Positions 218 to 23,603 of a stretch of 64,000 nucleotides of DNA are shown here, one piece after another; positions within the stretch are counted from its first letter, which is position 1; each line of letters opens with the position of its first letter. The notes beneath the pieces are model-generated. The model had not been told where the DNA came from. It ran no database searches and worked only from the letters and a program-made list of their open reading frames with translations. A program made the position numbers and the translations under genes. Source of the stretch: Methanoculleus thermophilus (lineage in GTDB: Archaea > Halobacteriota > Methanomicrobia > Methanomicrobiales > Methanoculleaceae); the NCBI RefSeq assembly GCF_001571405.1, contig NZ_BCNX01000003.1, positions 62,001 through 126,000 on the forward strand, in the 5' to 3' direction.

Positions 218-3200
218 TCAGTTCAACTTGAACTGCCTCATCATCTTCTCGAGCTGCTCGGCCATCTCTGCCAGTTCGTGCGCTGCGCTCCCGACCTCTT
301 CTGTCGATGCACTGACTTCTTCAGCGAGGGCCGCCATATCCTCGGTGCGGGTCAGAGTCTCCTTGATCATGCTGTTGGACTCGTCCATCTTTTGCATGAC
401 CTCGTTCGTGGAGTTTGCCTGGTCTTCGGTGGCCTTGGTTATCTCGGTGATACCGTGGGTCACCACTTCCACGCCGTTGACGATGCGGTTTAAGCTTGCG
501 ATGACCTTGTTGACGCTCTCGATGCCTGCCTGGATCTCCTGGTGGGACGCCTGCATCGAGCCTGTAGTCTTCTCGGTGCTTGCCTGGATAGTCCGGATCA
601 GGTCTTCGATATCCTGGCTCGCCCGCTTTGACTCACCGGCAAGGTTCCTGATCTCCCCGGCGACCACGGCAAACCCGCGACCATGCTCCCCTGCACGGGC
701 GGCCTCGATTGCGGCGTTGAGCGCGAGGAGGTTGGTCTGGTTGGCGATGTCGGCGATAAGTTTGACAATGTTATCGATCTCGCGCATCTGGTTGTTGAGG
801 GCGCTGATCTCATCCACGGTCTGTTTGGAGATCTCCTCGACAAGGTGCATCTTCTTCGTCGCAACTTCACCCAGGGCAGCCGCATCGTTTCCTTCCTTCG
901 AGGCCTTCATGGCGTGCTCCATGACCTCCTGCGACGTGCTTGCGATTTCCTCGATGGATGCGGATAAGTCATTAATGTCCTTGTTGATCTCCTCGATCTT
1001 CTCAAGCTGCCGCCGCGCATCCTCCGAAGAATGCTGCGTCGAGGTCGCGACCTGCTCCGTGGCCCGGATGATCTCGTCCGAACTCTTGCTGACCTCTTTC
1101 GTTGTCTGGTCTACCTGTTGAACGGCCTTTGCCACCTCGGCGAGGAGAGAACGGATGGAAGTCAGTGAGGCATTATAATCGTTCTTAACGTTCCCCAGAG
1201 GATCATCGGCCTCTGTGGTCACAAATACTGTCATGTCACCTTTTGCCAAAGCGGCGAGCGCTTTTCCAAGTTCACTGGCGCTCCTTCCGAGTCTCTCGCT
1301 CTCCTGTTTGGCGGTTTCCATCAGTTCTTTAATCTGCTCCTCTTTCTTCCGCTGCTCGGTGATGTCGTTGTAGACGGTGAGGACCGAGTCGAGGTTCCCC
1401 TCACGGTTGAGGAGCGGGATGTTGTACCGCTCAAGGATGCGGATGCCGGATGGGAACTCTACCGTGACCTCTCCATGGTTTGCCTGCCGGCTGTGTATGG
1501 TGTCGATAATCCCCTGACCCGACTGGGAGAGATACTTCATGTCGTGGACGGTGAGCCTCGAGGCCTGATCTTGGGTGTACCCCGAGAGTTTCAGGAATGC
1601 CTTATTCGCCATTCTCAGTGTCGCATCCGGGTTCCAGAGGAGAATGGGCATCGGATTCTCCTGAACCATGACCTCGGTCTGCTCCTGCAGCTCCTTGACC
1701 CTCTCCATCTCTTCCTGTTGCTTGGTCCAGTCGTTCCAGACGTAGAAGGCCATCTCGATATTGCCGTCCTTATCGAGGATGGGAATGGCGTTCAGGGTAA
1801 GGTACTTCTTCACACCGTCAGGCCACTTGACCAGGGCATCAGTCCGTGCGAGCCTCTTCGTCTCGTAGCAGGCGTAGAAGTGTTCGCCGTCAAGGATGGT
1901 GATATCATAATCGTAGAGTTTCTTTGCAAGCGTCTCTTCCCGCGTTCCCCGCCACATCCGGACGTATTCGTCGTTGATGTCAATCCGGCTCTTATCGGGC
2001 CCGAGGAGTGCAATTGCAAGCGGATTCTGCTTGATCATCGCGTCCACACGGTACTCGGCCTTCTTGACCTCCTCTTCCTTCTCCTTCAGTTCGGTCCAGT
2101 CGTTCCAGACGTAGAAGGCTCTCTCGATATTGCCGTTCTTATCGAGAATGGGGATGGCGTTCAGGGTAAGATACTTCTTCACGCCGTCCGGCCACTTGAC
2201 CATGACGTCCGTCCGCGCGAGTTTCTTCGTCTCGTAGCAGGCGTAGAAGTGTTCGCCGTCAAGGATGGTGATATCGTAGTCGTAGAGTTTCTTTGCGAGC
2301 GTCTCTTCCCGGGTTCCCCGCCACATCCGGGCATACTCGTCGTTGATGTCGATCCGGCTCTTGTCAGGCCCGAGGATTGCGATCGCAAGTGGGTTCTGCC
2401 GGATCATCGTGTCGACGCTATGCTTGAGTTTCTCGGCCTCCTCTTTCCTTTCCTGAAGGTCGGTCCAGTCGTTCCAGACGTAGAAGGCTACCTCGATATT
2501 GCCTTTCTCATCAAGAATGGGGATGGCGTTCAGGGTAAGATACTTCTTCACGCCGTCCGGCCACTTGACCATGACGTCCGTCCGCGCGGGTTTCTTCGTC
2601 TCGTAGCAGGCGTAGAAGTGCTCGCCGCGGATCACCGTGATATCATAGTCGTAGAGTTTCTTTGCAAGCGTCTCTTCCCGCGTTCCCCGCCACATCCGGA
2701 CATACTCGTCGTTGATGTCGATCCGGCTCTTGTCGGGCCCGAGGATTGCGATCGCAAGCGGATTCAGCTTGATCATCGTGTCAATACGACGCTGCATCCG
2801 GTAGATCTCTTCCTCTTCCTTCCTTCTCTCAGTGAGATCGTTATAGATGTTTAGAATCCCGGTTAATTCGTTCCTCTCGTTTAGGAGCGGAATCCCGTAT
2901 TGCTCAAGAGTGTAGACGCCTGTGGGGAACTCAACCGTCACCACTCCGCGAACCCGCCTCTTCTCACTGAGCACCTTCCTGATCCCCTCTCCCTTCTGGT
3001 CAAGGACTTTGAAGTCCCCGAGGTACATTGTGGTGACACGCGACTGGTCAAGGCCCGTCATCTGGAGATATGCCTGGTTGACTGTGCGGATCTTCATCGA
3101 GGTGTCAACAACCAGAATCGGCATTGGGTTTTCCTGTACGATCGTCTCGAACTGCTTCTGGAGAGATTCCACAGCCTCAAGTCTGCTCTGAAGTGCCTGC

Positions 3201-3433
3201 TTCTCCTCCTGCTTCTTGTCGAGTATTGCGTTGATCGAAGTGGCCAGAGCCCTGAACTCCTCTGGAACGCTGGCCAGATCGATCCTTGTGGAGTCATCGC
3301 CGTTAATTCCTGCGTGGAGCGCAGCCTCAAGTGCCTCAGGCAGTACAACCGTGCCAGACTGCTGCGCCTGGCCTGCCGCGCCTGGCACAACCGGTCCGGT
3401 AAATAATGCTTTTCTTCCAGGTTTATCACTCAT
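218..3433 (-). CDS. Soluble methyl-accepting chemotaxis protein with five PAS domains
   Basis: 1071 residues with no hydrophobic segment, so a cytoplasmic receptor. Order: a non-repetitive head (1-90), PAS at about 95-205, three near-identical PAS copies at about 215-325, 339-448 and 463-572, a fifth PAS at about 583-695 that resembles the first, a HAMP-like linker (about 720-770), and a long coiled-coil signalling domain (about 780-1065). The signalling tip reads [20 protein letters not shown], the CheA/CheW contact hairpin. Each triplicated PAS carries [11 protein letters not shown] with one cysteine and ends in a YVWNDWT strand. PAS domains usually sense redox state, oxygen or small ligands; the ligand here is unknown. 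The cheW gene follows directly and a ParA-like gene precedes it, which fits a cytoplasmic receptor array positioned by a ParA-type ATPase. Confidence 0.93.
1676..2791 (-). repeat. Three tandem ~372-bp copies encoding near-identical PAS domains
   Basis: Inside the receptor gene, three consecutive units of about 124 codons are nearly identical at protein level and very close at DNA level; the blocks around 1740-1990, 2100-2360 and 2470-2730 can be matched by eye. Differences are concentrated at the linker between units. This looks like recent tandem duplication or continuing gene conversion. Such arrays can change copy number by recombination. Confidence 0.9.
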
Positions 3434-3446
3434 AGATTACACATCC

Positions 3447-4316
3447 TCATTGCTTTTCGTCTAATTTCAGCACTGCTGTTGCCACTGCGTGGTATTCTCT
3501 ACCAGCATCGCTCTCTGGTGCATAGTGGGAGATTGGAAGCCCTTTCTGCTGCGAATCATAGATTGAGGGCGAGTATGGGACCACAAATACCTGTTTGAAT
3601 GCCTTTTTGACTTCGGCTTCAAACGCCCTCAATCGTTCAGCCTCTTTTTCGTCCTCGGCTGATGGACTTCCCAGGAAAATCCGTTTCAGGAAGAGCGCAA
3701 GCCCCCCAGTCTCGGTTGCCTGGCTGTCGGAATTCTTCCAGCGAGTCAGGATGGCGAAGTCTGCAGCGATCTCTTCTCCGAGCATCTCTTTGATGTCATC
3801 GAAGAGTGTTGACAGGGCTTCCATACCCCTAAGAGCGAAGGTACCGGGATCGAGAGTGACGATGATGTAGTCTGCTGCAACAAGGCCGTTGATGACAAAC
3901 TGCCCCATGCTTGGGGGCGTGTCGATCAGGATGAAGTCATAGGTGCCTTGTACCCGGGTGAGCGCTTCTTTGAGCAGTCCTGCCCGGTTCTCTATGCTGT
4001 AGAGATAAGGCTCGACCCCTACAAGATCCAGGGTTGCCGGAGCAAGGTCGACCCCTGCCGCCGTGGGAATGATAACATCGTCAATCTCGATGTCAGGAAA
4101 CCCTTCAAAGGAGTTCATGAAGACATCATACATGCTCACTTCAAGTGATTCAGGGTTGATCCCGAGTCCTGCAGTAGCGTTTGCCTGTGGATCGCAGTCT
4201 ACTACCAGGACACGTTTTCCCTCCTTCTGAAGGAACCCTGCAATGTTGAGGCACGATGTTGTCTTTCCTGTGCCACCTTTATGGTGGGCAAACGTTACAA
4301 TTGTTATATCCAGCAC
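3447..4316 (-). CDS. ParA/Soj-family ATPase next to chemoreceptor
   Basis: About 290 residues. A deviant Walker A motif, HHKGGTGKTT, is at the N-terminus, followed by a Walker A' region (VLVVDCDPQANATAGLG) and a Walker B region (DFILIDTPPSMG). These define the ParA/MinD group of dimerising ATPases, and the DPQ-N-T-G pattern is ParA/Soj-like rather than MinD-like. No membrane-binding helix is apparent. The gene ends 13 bases before the receptor, so it probably acts on receptor-array placement, as ParC does in bacteria; that role is inferred from position. The start is uncertain. GTG at 4316 and TTG at 4343 are in frame, but a GGGGTG Shine-Dalgarno lies six bases before an ATA codon at 4307, which would give the usual family N-terminus (M)TIVTFAHHKGG. 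Confidence 0.85.
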   Translation of the reverse strand: MLDITIVTFAHHKGGTGKTTSCLNIAGFLQKEGKRVLVVDCDPQANATAGLGINPESLEVSMYDVFMNSFEGFPDIEIDDVIIPTAAGVDLAPATLDLVGVEPYLYSIENRAGLLKEALTRVQGTYDFILIDTPPSMGQFVINGLVAADYIIVTLDPGTFALRGMEALSTLFDDIKEMLGEEIAADFAILTRWKNSDSQATETGGLALFLKRIFLGSPSAEDEKEAERLRAFEAEVKKAFKQVFVVPYSPSIYDSQQKGLPISHYAPESDAGREYHAVATAVLKLDEKQ

Positions 4317-12103: not shown

Positions 12104-14014
12104 CTATATTCCCAGCTTCTCCCGCTTCGCCTCGATGTGTGCGAGGATCCCCTCCGCTGCCTCCACCGCATCCGTCTCGACGTGGAGCACCCCGCCGGTG
12201 ATGCCGGGGAGGTCTTGCGTGAGGAGTTTGACGAGGTCCGGCCCCCCGGTCACGGTCGGGACCGGATTGACGTAGGTGTAGAGACCGAGCGCGAGCGCAA
12301 ACAGGGCGTCGATCGTCGCCTTCTGCTCCATGTACTCTGGAGCTGCGACGGCGACCGGGAGGTCGGGGAGGGGCACGCCGCCGAGGGCTTTGGAGACCGC
12401 GAGAAGGAGGTCGGCGCACCTACCGGTGTCGGTGCAGGTCCCAAACCCGAGCACCGGCGGTACACCGAGCGCTGAGCAGAGTCTCTTCAGCCCCGGCCCG
12501 GCCTTCTCCTTCGCCTCCGGTGAGCAGAGCCCGGCGACCTGGAGCCCGGCCACGCCGCAGCCCATCCCGAGGACCAGGATATCGCGCGCGATCAGGTTCT
12601 CCGCGACCGCGACGGTATGGACGTCCTGCCCGTAATCGCGCAGCGTGGTGCAGGAGACGAGCCCGACGACGCCCCGGATGGTCCCATCCTTGATGGCACT
12701 AAGCAACGGGTCAAGACTCCCCCCGAGCGCCTCGACGATGCTCTCTGTGGAGAACCCGACCACCGCCTCCCGCACGGGAAGACCCGGGATCGGCCTTACC
12801 TTCTCGCGCCGCTCCCGGAAGTTCTCGATCCCCATCTGGAGGAGCGCTGCCGCCTGTTCTTTTGCCTTCTCGGGGACGTACTCGAGCCTCTCCGTCCCGC
12901 CCTCAAAGACGACGACTTCGCTGACCGGGATCAGCTTGAAGTGATACTTCTCGGCGTAGAGGGGGTCGAGCGGGAGCGAGCAGTTCATGTCCGCAGCAAA
13001 GACGTCGACCGCCCCGGTGGCAAGCACCGCCTCCTGCATGATCCAGTTTCCCGTGTAGCCGTAGAAGACATTGTCCATCTCTCTTCTCTGGATCAGTTCC
13101 TGCCCGGTCTCGATGTTCGCGATGATCCTAAGCCCCTTCGCCCCCACGGCCCGAGCTTTCTCCTGCCACTCGTCGGTGCGGGCGAGGTCGATGAGAGCGA
13201 ACCCGAGGAAGGGTTCGTGGCCGTTCGGGAGGATGTTGACGTAGTCTGGATCGAGCACCCCGAGGTCGACCCGCATGGGGTGCGGGCGGGGGACGCCGTA
13301 GAGGATGTCCTGGATGTACTCGAGCACGATCTGACTCTGGTAGGCCATCGCGACGCCGAGGCGCATCGCCCGCATGGCGTGGCTCGCGTACCATCCGTCG
13401 ACGTTCGTGAGGGTCGAGGCGGTATCGACGATCGTCTCCCCATAGATCCCGCCGGGGAATAGCCCGAGACGCTTCCAGACCTCTTTACGCTCCTCCGGAG
13501 CGAGCCGCTCCACAATCAGGCTCGGCTCGTAGGTGAACCGGTGGAAGTCCTCCTCCACGAAGTCGCAGAGCCGGAGCGCGACCTCGGCATCGCTCCCGCT
13601 CGTGTCAATCCCGAGCCGTTCGGCAAACGTCCGAAGTTTTCCGGAATCCGCGATCGTGAACGGGGTCTTCCCTTCCGCGGTCGCCCGGAGGGTTCTCACC
13701 GCCTGCGCCGCATGAAAGTGGTAATTCGATGCCCCCATGACGTTCCGGAGGAGCATCATCCGCATCGCCATGCCGTCGGCGTTGATCCCGCAGACACCGC
13801 GCCAGTTCCGGGAGGCATCGGCCCGGCAGGGGCCGTTCGAGCAGAAATCGCATCGAGCGCCTGCCCGGCAGAAGGCGCATCGCCGGTCGGGGTCGTTCCC
13901 GAGACCCTGAGCCTCGTAGCGGTCCCAGACGTTCGACATGCCGTCCGCTTTGAGCCGCTGATAGACGGTCCTCACCGAGTCGTGGTAGGATATCCTGTCG
14001 CTCTCCATGGTCAT
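12104..14014 (-). CDS. cooS: CooS-family Ni-CODH catalytic subunit homologue, atypical active site
   Basis: 636 residues from the ATG at 14014. The N-terminal CxxC plus C-x2-C-x4-C cluster (Cys46, 49, 55, 58, 63 and Cys75) supplies the B- and D-cluster ligands. C-cluster ligands aligned with C. hydrogenoformans CODH-II numbering are His266 (GHEP, for H261), Cys345 (ADMNC, C333), Cys455 (VSCTT, C446), Cys486 (GMGC, C476), Cys527 (GTC, C526) and Lys565 (EQK, K563). The position of Cys295, normally within CCTGNE, reads IETGQE here, so the ligand is Glu302. Glu at this site is a ligand in hybrid-cluster proteins. CO oxidation therefore cannot be assumed. No cooF, cooC or acetyl-CoA synthase gene is near. 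A TATA-like ACATACTTATGG about 30 bases upstream suggests a leaderless transcript; the in-frame ATG at 14008 is an alternative. Confidence 0.88.
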   Translation of the reverse strand: MTMESDRISYHDSVRTVYQRLKADGMSNVWDRYEAQGLGNDPDRRCAFCRAGARCDFCSNGPCRADASRNWRGVCGINADGMAMRMMLLRNVMGASNYHFHAAQAVRTLRATAEGKTPFTIADSGKLRTFAERLGIDTSGSDAEVALRLCDFVEEDFHRFTYEPSLIVERLAPEERKEVWKRLGLFPGGIYGETIVDTASTLTNVDGWYASHAMRAMRLGVAMAYQSQIVLEYIQDILYGVPRPHPMRVDLGVLDPDYVNILPNGHEPFLGFALIDLARTDEWQEKARAVGAKGLRIIANIETGQELIQRREMDNVFYGYTGNWIMQEAVLATGAVDVFAADMNCSLPLDPLYAEKYHFKLIPVSEVVVFEGGTERLEYVPEKAKEQAAALLQMGIENFRERREKVRPIPGLPVREAVVGFSTESIVEALGGSLDPLLSAIKDGTIRGVVGLVSCTTLRDYGQDVHTVAVAENLIARDILVLGMGCGVAGLQVAGLCSPEAKEKAGPGLKRLCSALGVPPVLGFGTCTDTGRCADLLLAVSKALGGVPLPDLPVAVAAPEYMEQKATIDALFALALGLYTYVNPVPTVTGGPDLVKLLTQDLPGITGGVLHVETDAVEAAEGILAHIEAKREKLGI

Positions 14015-14061
14015 GGTGAGTGACACTCGCCACAACCATAAGTATGTGTCGGTACCGCGGC

Positions 14062-14557: not shown

Positions 14558-15334
14558 ATGACTGGATTGGCGAGACTCCTGATCGTCACCCTGATGATAG
14601 GGTGCGTGGCTCTCTTCTCCGGGGCGGTTGCCCAGGAGTATGGGGGCGACCAGACCCCGGTCCCGACCATGGCCGGGGGCGAGACCAATGAGACAAATGT
14701 CACCATCACGTCGCCGGAGGTTAATGCCAGCATCCCTGCTGGAAACGTCACGGTGAGCGTGAACGTCACGAACTTCACGCTCGTCGAGCCGACCGGGCAG
14801 CCGAATGTGCCGGGCGAAGGGCACCTGCACTACTACCTGGACGCCCCGATACCGACGAATGCAAGTGAACCGGCCATCCCGCCGACCGGCGGCTACGTCA
14901 TCTCCACGAACCTCACCCATACCTGGGAGAACGTGACGGCGGGCGAACACAACTTCTCGGTTCAACTGGTCAACAACGACCACACGCCGCTCATTCCGCT
15001 CGTCTTTGCAACAGTGAACGTCACCGTCGATGGGAACGCGACCGAAAATGCAACGACGGTAAACATCACGGCACAGGATATCGCGTTCGATACGGAGACC
15101 ATCACGGTGCCAGCGGGAGCGAACGTGACGATGGTCTTCAATAATATGGACAGCGTCCCCCACAACGTTGCAATCTATGACAGTTCTCTCCGGTCGGAAG
15201 AGATCTTCGTGGGCGATATCATCACCGGCCCTGCTGAGATCACCTACAACTTCACGGCGCCATCCGAGCCGGGAACCTACTACTTCCAGTGTGATGTCCA
15301 TCCATCCATGAATGGTGACTTCATTGTGGAGTGA
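14558..15334 (+). CDS. Secreted cupredoxin protein with an N-terminal beta-sandwich domain
   Basis: 258 residues. A signal peptide (LLIVTLMIGCVALFSGAVAQ) is followed by a short Thr/Asn-rich linker and a beta-sandwich at about 45-155 with EGHLHYYLDAP and NNDHTPLIPLVF, which looks like a DUF4399-type domain. A cupredoxin at about 168-258 ends the protein. Type-1 copper ligands are visible: His in VPHNVAIY, then Cys, His and Met in CDVHPSMNG. Many N-x-T/S sequons suggest glycosylation outside the cell. Small blue-copper proteins carry single electrons or buffer copper. The neighbouring PQQ-like gene has the same signal peptide and cupredoxin, so both probably act in one extracytoplasmic redox process; the partner is unknown. 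Confidence 0.88.
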   Translation: MTGLARLLIVTLMIGCVALFSGAVAQEYGGDQTPVPTMAGGETNETNVTITSPEVNASIPAGNVTVSVNVTNFTLVEPTGQPNVPGEGHLHYYLDAPIPTNASEPAIPPTGGYVISTNLTHTWENVTAGEHNFSVQLVNNDHTPLIPLVFATVNVTVDGNATENATTVNITAQDIAFDTETITVPAGANVTMVFNNMDSVPHNVAIYDSSLRSEEIFVGDIITGPAEITYNFTAPSEPGTYYFQCDVHPSMNGDFIVE

Positions 15335-15551: not shown

Positions 15552-15566
15552 TGCGAAAAGTATATA
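15552..15566 (+). promoter_or_regulatory. TATA promoter of the PQQ-cupredoxin gene
   Basis: TGCGAAAAGTATATA, 41 bases before the ATG at 15593. It repeats the element in front of the upstream cupredoxin gene, so this gene has its own promoter although it lies on the same strand, with about 260 bases in between. Confidence 0.65.
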
Positions 15567-15592: not shown

Positions 15593-17749
15593 ATGCAGAG
15601 ACTGTTGAGACTCCTGATCGTCACCCTTGTGATAGGGTGTTTAACGCTCTTCTCCGGGGCGGTCGCCCAGGAGGAGAACGCGACTAACATGACCAACGAG
15701 ACAGCAGGATCACAGACGGCGGACGGAGTCCCGCTGGAGATCGTGCAGTATGCGGCTGATTGGCCGCTACCCAATAGAGATTACGAGAATACCCGGGCAA
15801 CGACAGATGTATCGATTAGCAAAGAGAACGTGAACGATCTGGCAATCGCCTGGACGTTCGATATCAACGCCACCGGCACCTTTGGCGGCGCAAGCAGCAA
15901 CCCCATCATCATGGGGGACACCGTCTACTTCCAGGATCTCCACGCCAACACCTACGCCTTAAACCTCGCCGATGGTTCGGTGACGTGGGAGAAGATCTAC
16001 AACAACACCACCGTGACCGGGCCGAACGGGCCGGCGGTCGGGTGGGGTAAGGTCTTCGTGACGAACGACCCCTTCTCCATCGCAGCGTTGAACGCATCGA
16101 GCGGTGAGGAACTCTGGGTGATGCAGCTCATCAACACCACGCCTCTTGCCGGGGAGATCATCGGTGAGGGTATCGACATTCAGCCCACGGTCTACAACAA
16201 CCTCGTCTTCACCTCGACGGTCCCCGGACGCGGTGATGTCTTCTACCGGGGCGGCGCCGTAGGGATCCTCTATGCTCTCGACCAAGAGACCGGTGAGGTT
16301 GTCTGGAACTTCAGCACGGTCGACGACCCGGCGAGCATCTGGGGCAACCCTGAGGTCAACAGCGGCGGCGGAGCCTGGTACACTCCGGCCGTGGACACCG
16401 GGACCGGCATTACATACTGGTCGATAGCAAACCCGGCGCCGTTCGCGGGAACACCTGAATTCCCGAACGGCGCAAGTCGTCCCGGCCCGAACCTCTACAC
16501 AAACACCCTGATGGCACTCGACCATGCAACCGGGGATATGGTCTGGTTCACGCAGGTTCTCCCGCACGACCTCTTCGACCACGACCTCCAGATGCCGCCG
16601 ATCCTCGCCGATGCCAACATCAGCGGAGAGGATCAGAAGATCGTGATCAGCGGCGGAAAGATGGGCAGGGTCTACGCCTTCAACCGTGACACTGGCGCTA
16701 TCCTCTGGGTGTCCGTCGTGGGCAGGCACGAGAATGATCATCTTGCAGCCCTCCCGCCCGGCAACACCACGGTCTACCCTGGAGCGCTCGGCGGTGTCGA
16801 GACCCCGATGGCCTACGCGAACGGCACGGTCTACGTGCCCTACGTTGACCTCTACACCAACTGGACGCCGGAAAGCTCGCTCTCCATTGGTGTTGAGGGC
16901 GCACCTCAGGCGGAGATCCAGCCGGTTCCCGAAGGTACGGGCGGGCTTGTGGCTATTGAGGCCAATAGCGGCAAGGTCCTCTGGGACAGGAAACTTGACT
17001 CCATCAACGTCGGCGGCGCAACGGTCGTCAATGACCTGGTCTTTACGGGAACGTTCAACGGGACGATCTACGCGTTTGACGCGGTGACCGGCGAAGAGGT
17101 CTGGAACTTCACTGCACCTGCAGGCATCAACGCCTGGCCTGCGGTTGCAGGAGACACCATCGTCTGGCCCTGCGGTGTCGGTGAGATGGCCCAGGTCATA
17201 GCACTCCGTCCGGGTGGTATGGCCAACGTGACCCCGACTCCGACGGTGAACGTCACTCCGGCAGCGCCAGTGAACATGACCCCGACTCCGACGGTGAATG
17301 TCACTCCGGCAGCGCCAGTGAACATGACCCCGATGCCAACAATGAACGTCACCCCGACTCCGACGGTGAACGTGACGCCAACAGTGAATGTCACCCCGGC
17401 GCTGACGGTCAACGTCACTCAGACGCCAACGGAGAACGTGACCCCGACAACCCCCGAGGCCGAGATGATGGTGAACATCTCTGCCGATAACCTCGCCTTC
17501 GACACGGAGACCATCACGGTGCCGGCGGGGGCGAACGTAACGATGGTCTTTGACAATCAGGACGGGGGTATACCTCACAACGTCGCTATCTACGACAGTC
17601 CCCTTCGATCCGAGGAGATATTTGTGGGTGAGGTCATCACCGGACCTGCCCAGATCACCTACAACTTCACGGCGCCATCCGAGCCGGGAACCTACTATTT
17701 CCAGTGCGATGTCCACCCCTCGATGAATGGCGACTTCATTGTGGAGTGA
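15593..17749 (+). CDS. PQQ-dehydrogenase-like beta-propeller fused to a cupredoxin
   Basis: 718 residues from the ATG at 15593. The signal peptide is nearly identical to that of the previous gene. Residues about 50-545 form a propeller with repeated blade ends of the type TGE(V/L)xW (TGEVVWNF, TGAILWVS, SGKVLWDR, TGEEVWNF). LPHDLFDHD followed by PPILAD matches the region of PQQ alcohol dehydrogenases that carries the catalytic Asp. GGGAWYTP and IANPAPF sit where those enzymes have the PQQ-stacking Trp and a calcium-ligand Asn. Then comes a linker of NVTPTPTV-type repeats (about 545-620) and a C-terminal type-1 copper cupredoxin (His in IPHNVAIY; Cys, His and Met in CDVHPSMNG). The arrangement suggests direct transfer from a quinone site to copper outside the cell. 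Substrate and cofactor loading are unknown, and no PQQ biosynthesis genes are in the window. Confidence 0.85.
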   Translation: MQRLLRLLIVTLVIGCLTLFSGAVAQEENATNMTNETAGSQTADGVPLEIVQYAADWPLPNRDYENTRATTDVSISKENVNDLAIAWTFDINATGTFGGASSNPIIMGDTVYFQDLHANTYALNLADGSVTWEKIYNNTTVTGPNGPAVGWGKVFVTNDPFSIAALNASSGEELWVMQLINTTPLAGEIIGEGIDIQPTVYNNLVFTSTVPGRGDVFYRGGAVGILYALDQETGEVVWNFSTVDDPASIWGNPEVNSGGGAWYTPAVDTGTGITYWSIANPAPFAGTPEFPNGASRPGPNLYTNTLMALDHATGDMVWFTQVLPHDLFDHDLQMPPILADANISGEDQKIVISGGKMGRVYAFNRDTGAILWVSVVGRHENDHLAALPPGNTTVYPGALGGVETPMAYANGTVYVPYVDLYTNWTPESSLSIGVEGAPQAEIQPVPEGTGGLVAIEANSGKVLWDRKLDSINVGGATVVNDLVFTGTFNGTIYAFDAVTGEEVWNFTAPAGINAWPAVAGDTIVWPCGVGEMAQVIALRPGGMANVTPTPTVNVTPAAPVNMTPTPTVNVTPAAPVNMTPMPTMNVTPTPTVNVTPTVNVTPALTVNVTQTPTENVTPTTPEAEMMVNISADNLAFDTETITVPAGANVTMVFDNQDGGIPHNVAIYDSPLRSEEIFVGEVITGPAQITYNFTAPSEPGTYYFQCDVHPSMNGDFIVE

Positions 17750-17997
17750 GGGAAAGACGGGACAAACCCGTCTTTCTTACCTCTTTCTCTTCACGGGTTT
17801 GGTGGGGACCCTGTGTGCGGTAACGGGGACCGGGATTTCCGTCTTGCTCGCAGTATGAAACCCTGGTCGTCCGGGTGGGCGCATCGTTGCAGAAGAGAGC
17901 CGGAGCGGGTGAAGGTGCGAACGCAGGCATTGGGCTCTCTATCTTCGGTGCGCCCAAGTAAATTATAAATATCATGTATGCCACGACCCCACCTCTC

Positions 17998-18617: not shown

Positions 18618-21600
18618 TTAGTGTCTCCGCCTCGCCCAGAGGAGGAATGCCAGCGGAGCGAGGAGTGGCGCGTAGATGAGCGGTGTTACCTGTGCCTCCA
18701 CCGAAACGGTGGTTGGCTCTGTCGTCGCACCCTCGGTCACGATCTCGGTGGGCGTGACGTCTAACTCCTCTCCAGCAGTTGCGTTGGTCTCACCTCCGAC
18801 TGTTGCATTGGTCTCCCCGATGGGCGTTACGCTCGCCGATGCTGCAGTGATGGCAAAGGTGGAGAACCCCGGTATGATTGCCCGGAAGTGGTAATTGCGC
18901 CCTTCATTTCCGATGACTGTGGTCTCCAGGCTCTGCCAGGTGTTGTCGACGTAGCGCATGAGCCTGACATCCTCTGCGGTCGCGTCATGCTCATCGAGCC
19001 AAGCGCCGGGGACGGTGAAGACCACCGTTGCGTTGCTGATGCGTTGCGGGTTCACCCAGTTGAGATTGATCTCGAAGTACTCGTAGACGTCACCGGCGGG
19101 AGGTCTCGCCGCAGAAGGCTGAGAGGTCTCCTTTACGGTCACCATCATCCTCGGGATAGTCTCGGCTGCCGTGACGGCGACACTGCTGACCGATGAGATG
19201 GGGATATTCATAAAGGTGAACGTCTCCCCGGCTCTCAGATTCTCTCGTACTCCTGCATAGAAGGTGGGACGGCTGTCACCACTGTCGCCCCCGCCACCTC
19301 CGCCACCGCCTCCGGGGGTGGGAGTTGGTTCGGGCCCGGCGCTGGTCGTGATAGTGACTGTCGCCATCTCGATCGCGCTTCCCGCTGATGCGATCACGTC
19401 CACGGTTCCCTCCGCGAACGCGGCAAAGAGCCCGGCACGGTCGATGGAGCCTTTATCCATGTCTGATGAAGCCCAGTCAATCCGGACCCAGTCAATCTCA
19501 TTCTCGTGCTGGTCAAAGACCTTAGCAGTGAACTCCTGGATATCTCCAGGCTTCACCGTTGCCGTCGGGGGCTCAAGCTCGATTCTGGTCGGGATGGAGA
19601 ACGAGGGCTCAACGGTCACCTGGATCGAGCCCGAGGCACCTCCCGTTGATGCGGTCAGGGTCACGGTGCCCTCTTTGAGAGCCGTGAAGGTGCCGGACTC
19701 GTTGACTGTCCCGACGGCATCGTCACTGCTCTCCCAGGTGAGATTACCGGCAGGTATGACGCTGCCGCTCTCATCCCTCACAGTGAGTGCCAGGGTGTTG
19801 TTCGCGGCGATGGTGAAACCGGACGGGCTGACCGTGATCTGCGTAAGCGCCATGGGCGCCGGGAGAACGGTTACCGTTGCGGCCCCGGTCTCGTTGAGCC
19901 CCTCAACCGACGCGGTGATGGTAGTGGTACCTTCCCGGAGTGCCGAAAAGACCCCGTCGGATCCAATCTCACCAACGCTCGGGTCATCGGATGACCAGGT
20001 CACCTCCCCAGACACTACGCTGCCCTCCGAATCGTATGGAATCGCGGTGAATCGCCTGGTGTCACCCGCATAGACGGTGATCTCCGATGGGGTGACCACG
20101 ACCCCGGAGGATTCATTGGTGACCCTCACATCCACCGTTCCGGTGATGTTTTGGCCTGATGCTGTGATGGTCGTCCTTCCTGCGGCACGAGCGGTGAAGA
20201 TGCCTCCCGCATCGATGGTCCCGACGGTCTCGTCGCTACTTGTCCAGTTGATACTGCCGACAGTTATGGGGCGGCCGTTCTGGTCGAGAGCGTTCGCAGC
20301 AAAGACTGCGGTGTCGTTGACGTTCAGGGTGATTGCCGCCGGTGTGATGGCGAGGGTCGTTGCGATCGGTTCTTCTTCTCCATCATTGACGGTGACGGTA
20401 GCAGTCCCGGATACATTGTCTGCCGTCACGGTGACGTTCGTCGTTCCCACGGCAAGAGCAATGAAGGTGCCAAACTCATCGATGGTTCCGACGGTCTCGT
20501 CGCTGCTTGCCCAGGTGACCGCAACGTCGGAGACGACGTTACCGGACCGGTCAAATCCGCTGACCTCAAAGAGCAGGTCGTCGCCGACATTCAGGGTGAC
20601 TGCGGACGGCTGGATCACAAGCCTTGCAAGCACCGGTTCATCAGCGTTGACGGTGATGGTTGCTTCTGCGGATATGTTTCCTGCCGATGCCGTGACGTTC
20701 GTCGTTCCCGCGGCAAGAGCGGTGAAGATGCCGTTCGTGTCAATGCTCCCGACTGTCTCGTTGCTGCTAGTCCAGTTGATCTCGCTGACGGACATGGGCT
20801 GGCCGTCCTGATCGAAGATGGTCGCCATGAATCTCTGAGTATCGTTGACCGCGAGGGTGGCACGCGGCGGCGTGATCCTGATCTCTGTTGCGATGGGCTC
20901 TACCTCGCTGTCGTTGACGGTGACGGTTGCTTCTGCGGATATGTTTCCTGCCGATGCGGTGACGTTCGTCGTTCCCGCGGCAAGAGCGGTGAAGATGCCA
21001 TCGGCGTCAATGCTCCCTACGGTCGTGTTGCTGGACGTCCAGGTGACCGTAACGTTGATCATCTCACGGCCACGCTGGTCAAGGACGGTTGCATTGAACC
21101 TCTCAGTCTCGTTGATGGCGAGCGTGGCGGTGGGTGGACTGATCGTAATGCTTGTTGGAACCGGTTCGGCCGGTATATCCTCACTGACCGTGACGCTTGC
21201 CGTGCCGGAGACGTTATCTACCGATGCCGTGATCTCCGTCGTCCCCACAGCAAGAGCGGTGAAGATGCCATCGGCGTCAATGCTCCCTACGGTCGTGTTG
21301 CTGGACGTCCAGGTGACCGTAACGTTGGTCATCTCACGGCCACGCTGGTCAAGGACGGTTGCATTGAATCTCTCAGTCTCATTGATGGCGAGTGTAACGG
21401 TGGACGGGCTGATCGTAATGCTTGTTGCGACCGGTTCGGTCGGCGCATCCTCACTGACCGTGACGTTTGCCGTGCCGGAGACGTTGCCGGATGTCGCCGT
21501 GATCTCTGTTGTGCCCACTGCAAGAGCGGTGAAGACACCACTTGTATCGATGGTTCCGACGGTCTCGTTGCTGCTTGTCCAGTTGATCTCGCTGACGGTC

Positions 21601-22775
21601 ATGGGCTGGCCATTCTGGTCGAGAGCGGTTGCGTTGAAGGTTATGGTGTCGTTAACGTTCAGAGTGATAGTCTTGGGAGTAACGTTGATGGTCGTCAATA
21701 CCGGTTCGGTCGGTGCTTTGGGCTCGTAGACAAACATGTAAAGGTTCGAGTTAGGACTCTGGCCCCTCTGCCAGACGATCGTATTGCCGCTGGCAACAGG
21801 GTAGAGTTGCTCGTCATCGGGGCCTGCTGGTTCAAAAGCGATCATCTCTTCCCCATCACTCGAGAGGTCGTACATGTATATGGCCCGTGGCCCGTCGCGC
21901 ATGTCCTCCCAGGCGATGAGACGCTCGCTGATTGTCGGCGAGACCTGATAACCTGGGGCAGTGGTGATCCGCCGCTCTGTCGCTGCCGGATTGTCGAGGT
22001 CGGCCATATAGATCTCAGGGTTCGTAGTCCCGTGCCGGTAGTCCTCCCAGGCAATAAGGCTCCCGGACAGCGAGGGCCAGGACTGATACAAGGGAGACGT
22101 GGCAGTCGTGGATACCCGGCCAACTACCGATCCCGCCTCGATATCATAATACCAGAGTCGCTCCCCACTGTCAGATTCGTTCACCCAGGCGAGATACCTC
22201 TCGGAGAGCGCTGGCCTGAATTCGGTCCCCACAGTCGAGAAAGGAATCGTCGTCTTTGCGTTGGCCTCGATGACGGCCTTCACGGCTCCGGCGCCGATGT
22301 CGTAGAGGACGATGTTTGTCTTGCCGGTACTGTTGTCGTACCAGGCGGCGTAGTTTCCGCGGACTATGGGCAGCCACTGATAGCCGGAATCGTTGGTGAG
22401 CGGTCTCTCTTCACGAGTGGAGATGTCATAAAGATAGATATCCGAGTTTCCGTTCCGGCTATCCTGCCAGACGATGTAGTTCCCCGAGATGGACGGCATC
22501 GCCTGCGAGGCAGGATCAGTCGTTATCCTCTCGCCGGTGTAACTGCCGAGCGATCTTCGGAAATCGCCTACGGTTCCAAGATAGATGTCGTTGTTGCCGT
22601 TCCGGTCGTCTTGCCAGACGATTCTGTCGCCGTCGATATCCGGGCGGTCCTGCGCTCTGTCGAAGCCACGATATATGTGCTCCCCCGGCGCAGCCTCTAT
22701 CGCCATAACCGGTGATATCAACAGTCCGAGAACAACAACTGTGCACAATAGTGCCAGATGTGTATATTTAGTCAT
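18618..22775 (-). CDS. Giant surface protein: TolB-like propeller, nine Big_2 domains, PGF-pre-PGF domain
   Basis: 1385 residues from the ATG at 22775. Signal peptide; then about residues 30-370 with repeated VWQDDRNGNNDIYL/AWEDYRHGTTNPEIYM units, a TolB-like six-bladed propeller. Nine Ig-like Big_2 domains of about 85-90 residues follow, each with ATLAINETERFNATVLDQ- and TVGSIDADGIFTAL-like strands; the middle ones are nearly identical. Next are a proline/glycine linker (PTPGGGGGGGGG) and a domain ending in RAIIPGFSTFAIT, the pattern called PGF-pre-PGF in methanogen surface proteins. A Thr/Glu-rich stalk and a C-terminal membrane helix with a basic tail (LAPLAFLLWARRRH) finish it. Dozens of N-x-T sequons imply heavy glycosylation. 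It is likely an S-layer-attached adhesin or scaffold with the propeller at the tip. AAGGGGGGAAAG precedes the ATG. Confidence 0.88.
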   Translation of the reverse strand: MTKYTHLALLCTVVVLGLLISPVMAIEAAPGEHIYRGFDRAQDRPDIDGDRIVWQDDRNGNNDIYLGTVGDFRRSLGSYTGERITTDPASQAMPSISGNYIVWQDSRNGNSDIYLYDISTREERPLTNDSGYQWLPIVRGNYAAWYDNSTGKTNIVLYDIGAGAVKAVIEANAKTTIPFSTVGTEFRPALSERYLAWVNESDSGERLWYYDIEAGSVVGRVSTTATSPLYQSWPSLSGSLIAWEDYRHGTTNPEIYMADLDNPAATERRITTAPGYQVSPTISERLIAWEDMRDGPRAIYMYDLSSDGEEMIAFEPAGPDDEQLYPVASGNTIVWQRGQSPNSNLYMFVYEPKAPTEPVLTTINVTPKTITLNVNDTITFNATALDQNGQPMTVSEINWTSSNETVGTIDTSGVFTALAVGTTEITATSGNVSGTANVTVSEDAPTEPVATSITISPSTVTLAINETERFNATVLDQRGREMTNVTVTWTSSNTTVGSIDADGIFTALAVGTTEITASVDNVSGTASVTVSEDIPAEPVPTSITISPPTATLAINETERFNATVLDQRGREMINVTVTWTSSNTTVGSIDADGIFTALAAGTTNVTASAGNISAEATVTVNDSEVEPIATEIRITPPRATLAVNDTQRFMATIFDQDGQPMSVSEINWTSSNETVGSIDTNGIFTALAAGTTNVTASAGNISAEATITVNADEPVLARLVIQPSAVTLNVGDDLLFEVSGFDRSGNVVSDVAVTWASSDETVGTIDEFGTFIALAVGTTNVTVTADNVSGTATVTVNDGEEEPIATTLAITPAAITLNVNDTAVFAANALDQNGRPITVGSINWTSSDETVGTIDAGGIFTARAAGRTTITASGQNITGTVDVRVTNESSGVVVTPSEITVYAGDTRRFTAIPYDSEGSVVSGEVTWSSDDPSVGEIGSDGVFSALREGTTTITASVEGLNETGAATVTVLPAPMALTQITVSPSGFTIAANNTLALTVRDESGSVIPAGNLTWESSDDAVGTVNESGTFTALKEGTVTLTASTGGASGSIQVTVEPSFSIPTRIELEPPTATVKPGDIQEFTAKVFDQHENEIDWVRIDWASSDMDKGSIDRAGLFAAFAEGTVDVIASAGSAIEMATVTITTSAGPEPTPTPGGGGGGGGGDSGDSRPTFYAGVRENLRAGETFTFMNIPISSVSSVAVTAAETIPRMMVTVKETSQPSAARPPAGDVYEYFEINLNWVNPQRISNATVVFTVPGAWLDEHDATAEDVRLMRYVDNTWQSLETTVIGNEGRNYHFRAIIPGFSTFAITAASASVTPIGETNATVGGETNATAGEELDVTPTEIVTEGATTEPTTVSVEAQVTPLIYAPLLAPLAFLLWARRRH

Positions 22776-23603
22776 TCTTTCCCCCCTTGCTTGATAACAC
22801 TCCACCTGCGGGATCGTCGATGCATACCTTACGGTACGCACAAACGGGCTGGCTAAAGCAGGCGCTCGGCCGAGCACCCGGCAGGTGTACTGCGAATTCC
22901 AATCAAGACCCGGTCATAGGGCAACCGGTGAATGGGTGAATAGTGATATAAATATATATCCTTTACGGTGGTATATTCACAGATTTTTATAATAAATTCA
23001 GGTAACCCACATCTATCATCATGAGTACAGATGTGTTGAGAGGGCTCCACTCCCATGCGCCGGGCAGCGATCGCGGATATGTGGTCATTGGCACCCGCTG
23101 ACTCTATAAAGATTTCTAGATTCTAAATTTTCGCTAAAATCCCCTGTACTCTGTAGATCGGCGCATTACTCTGCATGGTTTTGGAGAAGAGCCTGATCAT
23201 CAATAGTGGGCGCTGCAATCGCTTTGGACGTTATTATTATGGATTAAGGAGGAGCCGACCGTTCAACGCGTCCCGGCAGGGTCCGGCGGATCCGCTGATA
23301 ATCCACTCAACGGTTCTCCCCGCAGCATCGTGGAGCGGGGTTGATCGGGGCATCAGTGTTGCAGTGAGTGGAAGGGATCGGGCCAGTCTCGCTCTATCCA
23401 GTAAGTATGGTCGGCCGGGGCGGATTTTGTGAGCTCGTTATATCAGGCATGCAGCGCTCTGTGTCGAGGGATACGAACAGATATTGACCTCGATCCTCAC
23501 CCTATCAATATTGTTTCTTGGTGCTATAGCCACATGTGAAGGATTTATGCTTCCCGGAGTAATACAGGCAGCCTTTTAGGAAAAGGCCGAGAATTACCCA
23601 TTT
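22776..23603. other. Intergenic region: promoter and leader of the surface protein; no gene
   Basis: AT-rich TATA candidates on the minus strand at about 22943-22965 (GATATATATTTATATC) imply a leader of roughly 150 bases for the surface protein gene. Within it, 22822-22839 can form a 7-bp hairpin closed by a GUAA tetraloop. Between 23000 and 23600 frames on both strands are short and without domains; an open frame at 23175-23432 shows no family resemblance. Confidence 0.5.

Follow-up and report, generated by a model that had tools for sequence, protein, structure and literature searches.

A quinoprotein alcohol dehydrogenase-like propeller fused to a blue-copper domain in a methanogen, with an invariant catalytic core and an altered PQQ pocket

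Results

A propeller–cupredoxin fusion in Methanoculleus thermophilus

We analyzed a 64,000-nucleotide stretch (the window) of the M. thermophilus genome, which is 99.5% complete, and found a gene whose product joins a propeller of the PQQ-dependent alcohol dehydrogenase (PQQ-ADH) type to a blue-copper domain. The protein has the full fold of these dehydrogenases, a catalytic core that is invariant among orthologues, a complete copper site, and a near-universal pairing with a redox module across its family. Our best explanation, to which we give about an even chance, is that it is a secreted cell-surface redox protein, quinoprotein alcohol dehydrogenase-like, coupled to a blue-copper acceptor. 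The locus contains the following features.

14558..15334, + strand: upstream gene with the same leader, a DUF4399-like domain, and a cupredoxin domain (Pfam); kept upstream in relatives
15554..15565, + strand: BRE/TATA-like promoter element CGAAAAGTATAT of the fusion gene (exact match)
15593..17749, + strand: fusion gene, 718 amino acids, with signal peptide, PQQ-ADH-type propeller, stalk, and cupredoxin (open reading frame, Pfam)
15593..15667, + strand: signal peptide, amino acids 1–25, likely cleaved between AVA and QE (read from sequence)
15746..17212, + strand: eight-bladed propeller, amino acids 52–540 (PF01011, AlphaFold model, Foldseek, VIA)
17213..17446, + strand: NVTPTPTV stalk with many N-x-T sequons (sequence)
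17447..17746, + strand: cupredoxin domain with type-1 copper ligands H662, C705, H708, and M711 (PF13473, PF00127)
17750..17778, + strand: terminator-like hairpin directly 3′ of the fusion-gene stop (12-pair stem, equally common in shuffled sequence)

The reading frame begins with ATG and is free of internal stops. Its start is supported by the archaeal BRE/TATA-like element CGAAAAGTATAT 27 nt upstream. A second copy lies at nearly the same spacing (28 nt) 5′ of the preceding cupredoxin gene; these two are the only matches in the window, where 0.09 would be the chance mean. The signal peptide and the stalk that the initial annotation had read are both present, and the leader recurs in near-identical form in the upstream gene. 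That gene is likely a partner or paralogue of the fusion gene and seems to reflect duplication of the leader and the copper domain. The hairpin after the stop is at most a weak candidate for a terminator. The closest relatives of the fusion protein, at 81–85% identity, come from Methanoculleus metagenome-assembled genomes (MAGs).

On the opposite strand, a gene at 12104–14035 encodes what we take, from reading it, to be a protein resembling CooS-type carbon monoxide dehydrogenase; it lies near the cupredoxin cluster, and such a gene is also found at loci L009 and L012. Farther along on the same strand, 18618–22877 encodes a repeat-rich surface protein of about 1400 amino acids, propeller-like at its N terminus and with repeats of the Ig-like kind. 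Five Methanoculleus relatives also have it downstream of their fusion gene.

The propeller has the fold of PQQ dehydrogenases

The Pfam PQQ propeller profile (PF01011) matched over its gathering score with an E value of 1.5e-42. We then used an AlphaFold model of the propeller part, built from 18 sequences (pLDDT 82.8, pTM 0.89), in structure comparisons. The best 30 Foldseek matches in the PDB were all PQQ dehydrogenases, and VIA-align superposed ∼465 residues on 1yiq, 1kv9, XoxF (6dam), and SolV (4mae) with Z scores of 36–39 and an rmsd of about 2.5–3.0 Å. The PQQ-dehydrogenase-like propeller proposed from the letters alone was thus borne out by profile, model, and both comparisons. The fold by itself is no proof of function, because the computationally designed eight-blade propeller 6tjg also reaches a Z score of 39, but over 314 residues; what sets the PQQ dehydrogenases apart is that they align along the entire model. 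Against curated models, the protein stayed below the cut-off of TIGR03075, for PQQ-dependent alcohol dehydrogenases of the methanol/ethanol family (185.9 vs. 480.05 bits), and of BamB/YfgL TIGR03300 (94.7 vs. 285.2). BamB was ruled out as the true relative by its far weaker scores. High aromatic content, cited for the methanogen surface quinoprotein SqpA, was likewise rejected as a distinguishing mark: at 9–11.5% in family members and controls alike, it is ordinary for the propeller fold.

The catalytic core is invariant among orthologues

We mapped functional sites with alignments to solved enzymes and a panel of 33 sequences that included 22 orthologues. The roles of the mapped positions are established for methanol and ethanol dehydrogenases.

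16376..16378, + strand: Trp262, at the position of the PQQ floor Trp (W237/238 of methanol dehydrogenases); invariant in 22/22
16430..16432, + strand: Asn280, equivalent of the metal ligand N255/256; invariant in 22/22
16577..16585, + strand: Asp329, aligned with the catalytic base D297/299, and Asp331, aligned with the lanthanide-type second Asp (D301); both invariant in 22/22
16658..16660, + strand: Lys356 (the R324/K position); invariant in 22/22

The two motifs that had drawn attention at the outset turned out to be the functional ones: GGGAWYTP bears W262, the Trp after GGG, which we placed by counting back from the metal Asn, and LPHDLFDHD bears D329 and D331. All five residues are unchanged in every orthologue, at identities down to 48%. 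Finding five of five preselected columns among the 105 invariant columns of 500 has a chance probability of 3.8e-4, an approximate value that ignores relatedness. The initial annotation had allowed that the Asp, Trp, and Asn motifs might fall away from the catalytic positions; in the alignments, W262, N280, D329, D331, and K356 appear to occupy the expected ones. The metal Glu (E171/172) is the exception, since the residue aligned with it is variable, which counts against our best explanation. An acidic residue, D215, is present in the adjoining inserted loop in 21 of the 22 orthologues, in a region where the model is uncertain, and could substitute for this Glu.

The PQQ-anchoring side of the pocket is replaced

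Other positions, among them the residues that anchor PQQ, have changed. Among the orthologues, Glu55 is replaced by Ser, Ala, or Asn and Trp467 by Val, Leu, or Phe; Arg109 is Asn and Asn387 is Glu in 22/22, Thr153 is Asp in 20/22, Ser168 is Val in 21/22, and the vicinal Cys-Cys ring over PQQ is absent from all 22. Compared with quinoprotein alcohol and methanol dehydrogenases (1kv9, 1kb0, PedH 6zcw, XoxF 6dam, and 4mae), the fusion protein therefore shares the full-length eight-bladed fold, the floor Trp, the metal Asn, the catalytic Asp, the DxD lanthanide signature, and the Lys/Arg position but differs in lacking the Cys-Cys ring, in its replaced Glu55, Arg109, Thr153, and Ser168, and in its fused blue-copper domain. 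The loss of E55, R109, T153, S168, and Cys-Cys from all orthologues weighs against our best explanation.

Several of these losses occur in our PQQ controls as well. Controls of the mGDH and sorbose dehydrogenase types also lack the Cys-Cys ring and Trp467, and mGDH lacks Arg109, so these three features are dispensable in such enzymes, and we dropped their absence as proof of PQQ loss. Every position that is universal among the PQQ controls is kept in the orthologues except E55, which is Glu in 15 of 16 controls and paralogues and Gln in the other. Judged from sequence, the pocket is unusual rather than plainly dead, and PQQ binding is doubtful; we put it no more strongly because some of the losses are found in genuine PQQ enzyme types (mGDH). 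Since the PQQ-anchoring features were tested for and not found, we do not file the propeller as a PQQ dehydrogenase, although it may work like one all the same. A second PQQ-ADH-like subfamily (L083, at G156:C2:258703-260274; L077; and L033) keeps Glu55 and mostly Trp467 and has His at the Arg109 position.

The retained control-universal positions and the tolerance of mGDH- and sorbose dehydrogenase-type controls for the Cys-Cys, Arg109 (mGDH), and Trp467 losses fit a true PQQ enzyme that would scavenge PQQ from neighboring bacteria, oxidize an alcohol or sugar, and pass the electrons to its cupredoxin. E. coli glucose dehydrogenase uses PQQ released by other bacteria in this way. We regard this as possible but doubtful for the fusion protein, given the change of the near-universal E55 to Ser, Ala, or Asn, the Asp at position 153, which would add a negative charge where the PQQ carboxylates sit, and the results of our search for PQQ synthesis genes.

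PQQ synthesis and cytochrome c assembly genes

The initial annotation had remarked on the tension between a PQQ-type enzyme and a host not expected to make PQQ, and our searches upheld it. In the host genome, PqqE gave no match over the curated cut-off, only matches below it; the same held for PqqB in the host and 26 other genomes, which are mostly holders of the propeller gene. PqqC also gave nothing over cut-off in the host and 26 other genomes, a weak zero because no positive control scored. The lack of a synthesis gene over cut-off argues against both scavenged PQQ and our best explanation and is a further difference from the quinoprotein dehydrogenases compared above. We also found no cytochrome c assembly gene (PF01578, Ccm-type) in the host and six other genomes, while the control Methanosarcina acetivorans was detected, and the absence of this acceptor route is another point against our best explanation. 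One tentative and less likely alternative is a quinoprotein-fold redox enzyme in which a non-PQQ cofactor, such as a methanogen quinone or phenazine, would sit over a calcium or lanthanide center that the fusion would wire to blue copper or DOMON, giving methanogens without c-type cytochromes a surface electron route.

A complete copper site and a recurrent redox partner

The C-terminal domain matched Cupredoxin_1 (PF13473, E 2.1e-9) and Copper-bind (PF00127, E 5.2e-7), both over the gathering score. As first read, its type-1 copper site is complete: C705, H708, and M711 follow the C-x2-H-x2-M spacing of the amicyanin loop, and H662 is the fourth ligand. The agreement with amicyanin lies in the loop spacing alone, the TIGR02657 score being 28.3 bits against a cut-off of 110.2. 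The ligand motif is complete in 44 of 45 cupredoxins of the family; the remaining one is cut by the end of its locus.

We examined the partner of the propeller in 21 of the 22 orthologues, the last (L026) being cut by a contig end. In 13, from the host's taxonomic order, propeller and cupredoxin are fused, some with DUF4399 or fasciclin between them. Four orthologues (L029, L031, L072, and L073) have an unfused propeller beside a cupredoxin gene, and for L072 and L073, which belong to a second archaeal family, this neighbor is a DUF4399–cupredoxin protein like the one upstream of the window gene. Three more from the second family (L071, L075, and L076) carry DOMON fused to the propeller instead of cupredoxin (E 6.9e-25); no DOMON domain was found in four Methanoculleus-type genomes checked. 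Only L030 has neither partner, so a redox module accompanies the propeller in 20/21. The propeller–DOMON fusion of L071 spans 1393–3582, and L075 has a further DOMON gene alongside. In L023 and L032, fasciclin domains lie between propeller and cupredoxin or are inserted within the propeller.

The pairing extends beyond the orthologues. L033, from the distinct PQQ-ADH-like subfamily, is likewise fused to a cupredoxin of the same type. The host genome also encodes a fusion of a GSDH-type propeller (soluble glucose/sorbosone dehydrogenase) with cupredoxin (G000:C8:175538-177594; L054, L055), followed by a separate cupredoxin gene; the GSDH propeller is unrelated to the PQQ-ADH type and yet is fused to the same type of cupredoxin. 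At L012, a GSDH–cupredoxin gene lies directly downstream of the propeller–cupredoxin gene. The nearest solved relatives of this L012 homologue are hedgehog-interacting proteins.

Because the partner is almost always a redox module, electron transfer is favored over a purely structural role. The initial annotation had offered as one reading a propeller that kept the fold and lost PQQ; in that case, it would be a structural or adhesive surface module whose redox chemistry is gone, with the cupredoxin there to bind copper or to supply a fold module. Other surface modules in the same proteins (fasciclin, DUF4399, and N-x-T stalks) are consistent with this, and such loss is recognized among PQQ-ADH relatives: acido-empty-quinoprotein group A (TIGR04528) is PQQ-ADH-like in sequence and named as lacking PQQ, although the fusion protein scores far below its cut-off (151.7 vs. 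650). A structural role is nevertheless unlikely in view of the core invariant in 22/22, the complete copper site, and the near-constant redox partner, and without a common redox chemistry it is difficult to account for cupredoxin and DOMON replacing each other as partner.

Discussion

Enzymes of the PQQ/lanthanide alcohol dehydrogenase type pass their electrons to a separate azurin or cytochrome. In our preferred reading, the propeller would keep the metal and acid catalytic center of these enzymes, bind a metal there, and exchange electrons with its own tethered cupredoxin; with the PQQ site altered, the cofactor would be another planar molecule or else scavenged PQQ in a different binding mode. 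Electron exchange between propeller and copper is the best explanation because quinoprotein-type propellers are repeatedly paired with carriers and the core is invariant. The other reading offered at the outset, a redox enzyme that hands electrons to copper, is only half supported as a PQQ enzyme, given the altered PQQ-anchoring residues.

Pairing of a quinoprotein with a small type-1 copper protein is familiar from methylamine dehydrogenase and amicyanin and from quinohaemoprotein alcohol dehydrogenase and azurin. The fusion protein resembles these pairs in this respect and in its amicyanin-like C-x2-H-x2-M spacing; it differs in that the copper protein is separate there, the cofactor is TTQ, or PQQ and haem, and the amicyanin model falls below cut-off here. 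PQQ dehydrogenases of marine heterotrophic Thaumarchaea are also archaeal and without Cys-Cys, several have DxD, and they have been proposed to feed blue copper (PMC7300363), but their hosts are aerobic and encode PQQ synthase, and their copper proteins are separate.

Among methanogens, cupredoxin and PQQ-domain surface proteins of Methanosarcina barkeri are up-regulated during direct interspecies electron transfer (DIET). PQQ synthesis is reported absent from this organism, and a different cofactor, for example methanophenazine, is proposed in the same study (PMC6315138). Methanothrix highly expresses the surface quinoprotein SqpA together with several copper-binding surface proteins (PMC10470525). 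These proteins, which we compared by description alone (SqpA being Mthe_0878 of Methanothrix thermoacetophila), are likewise methanogen surface propellers annotated as PQQ proteins, with copper-binding surface proteins co-expressed, but they are not reported as fusions. Both reports lend some color to an electron-uptake protein for DIET, in which electrons would enter at the cupredoxin and move inward. We consider this very improbable, since the potentials known for cupredoxins and PQQ are too positive (PMC6315138), the host has no cytochrome c assembly gene, and SqpA expression is equal under DIET and on acetate (PMC10470525). The potentials of known cupredoxins, too positive to feed methanogenesis, also count against our best explanation (PMC6315138).

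The initial annotation had suggested a cell-surface electron route not described for this group. Surface quinoproteins and cupredoxins had in fact already been proposed for electron uptake (PMC6315138, PMC10470525), but our literature search, which included Methanoculleus with quinoprotein or plastocyanin and “empty quinoprotein,” found no paper on the fusion. What appears to be new is the fusion with its intact core and the exchange of cupredoxin for DOMON, surface “PQQ” and copper proteins having been proposed before in Methanosarcina and Methanothrix.

The finding bears on electron exchange between methanogens that lack multihaem cytochromes and their surroundings. It provides a single defined gene family whose propeller nearly always comes with a redox carrier, whose core is intact enough for a direct test, and whose cofactor pocket differs from that of every PQQ enzyme in the comparison. 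With its DxD signature, the protein also prompts the question whether a methanogen uses lanthanides. Loose proposals of surface quinoproteins in Methanosarcina and Methanothrix are thereby turned into a testable protein, for which one can ask which cofactor it holds and whether its own copper domain is reduced.
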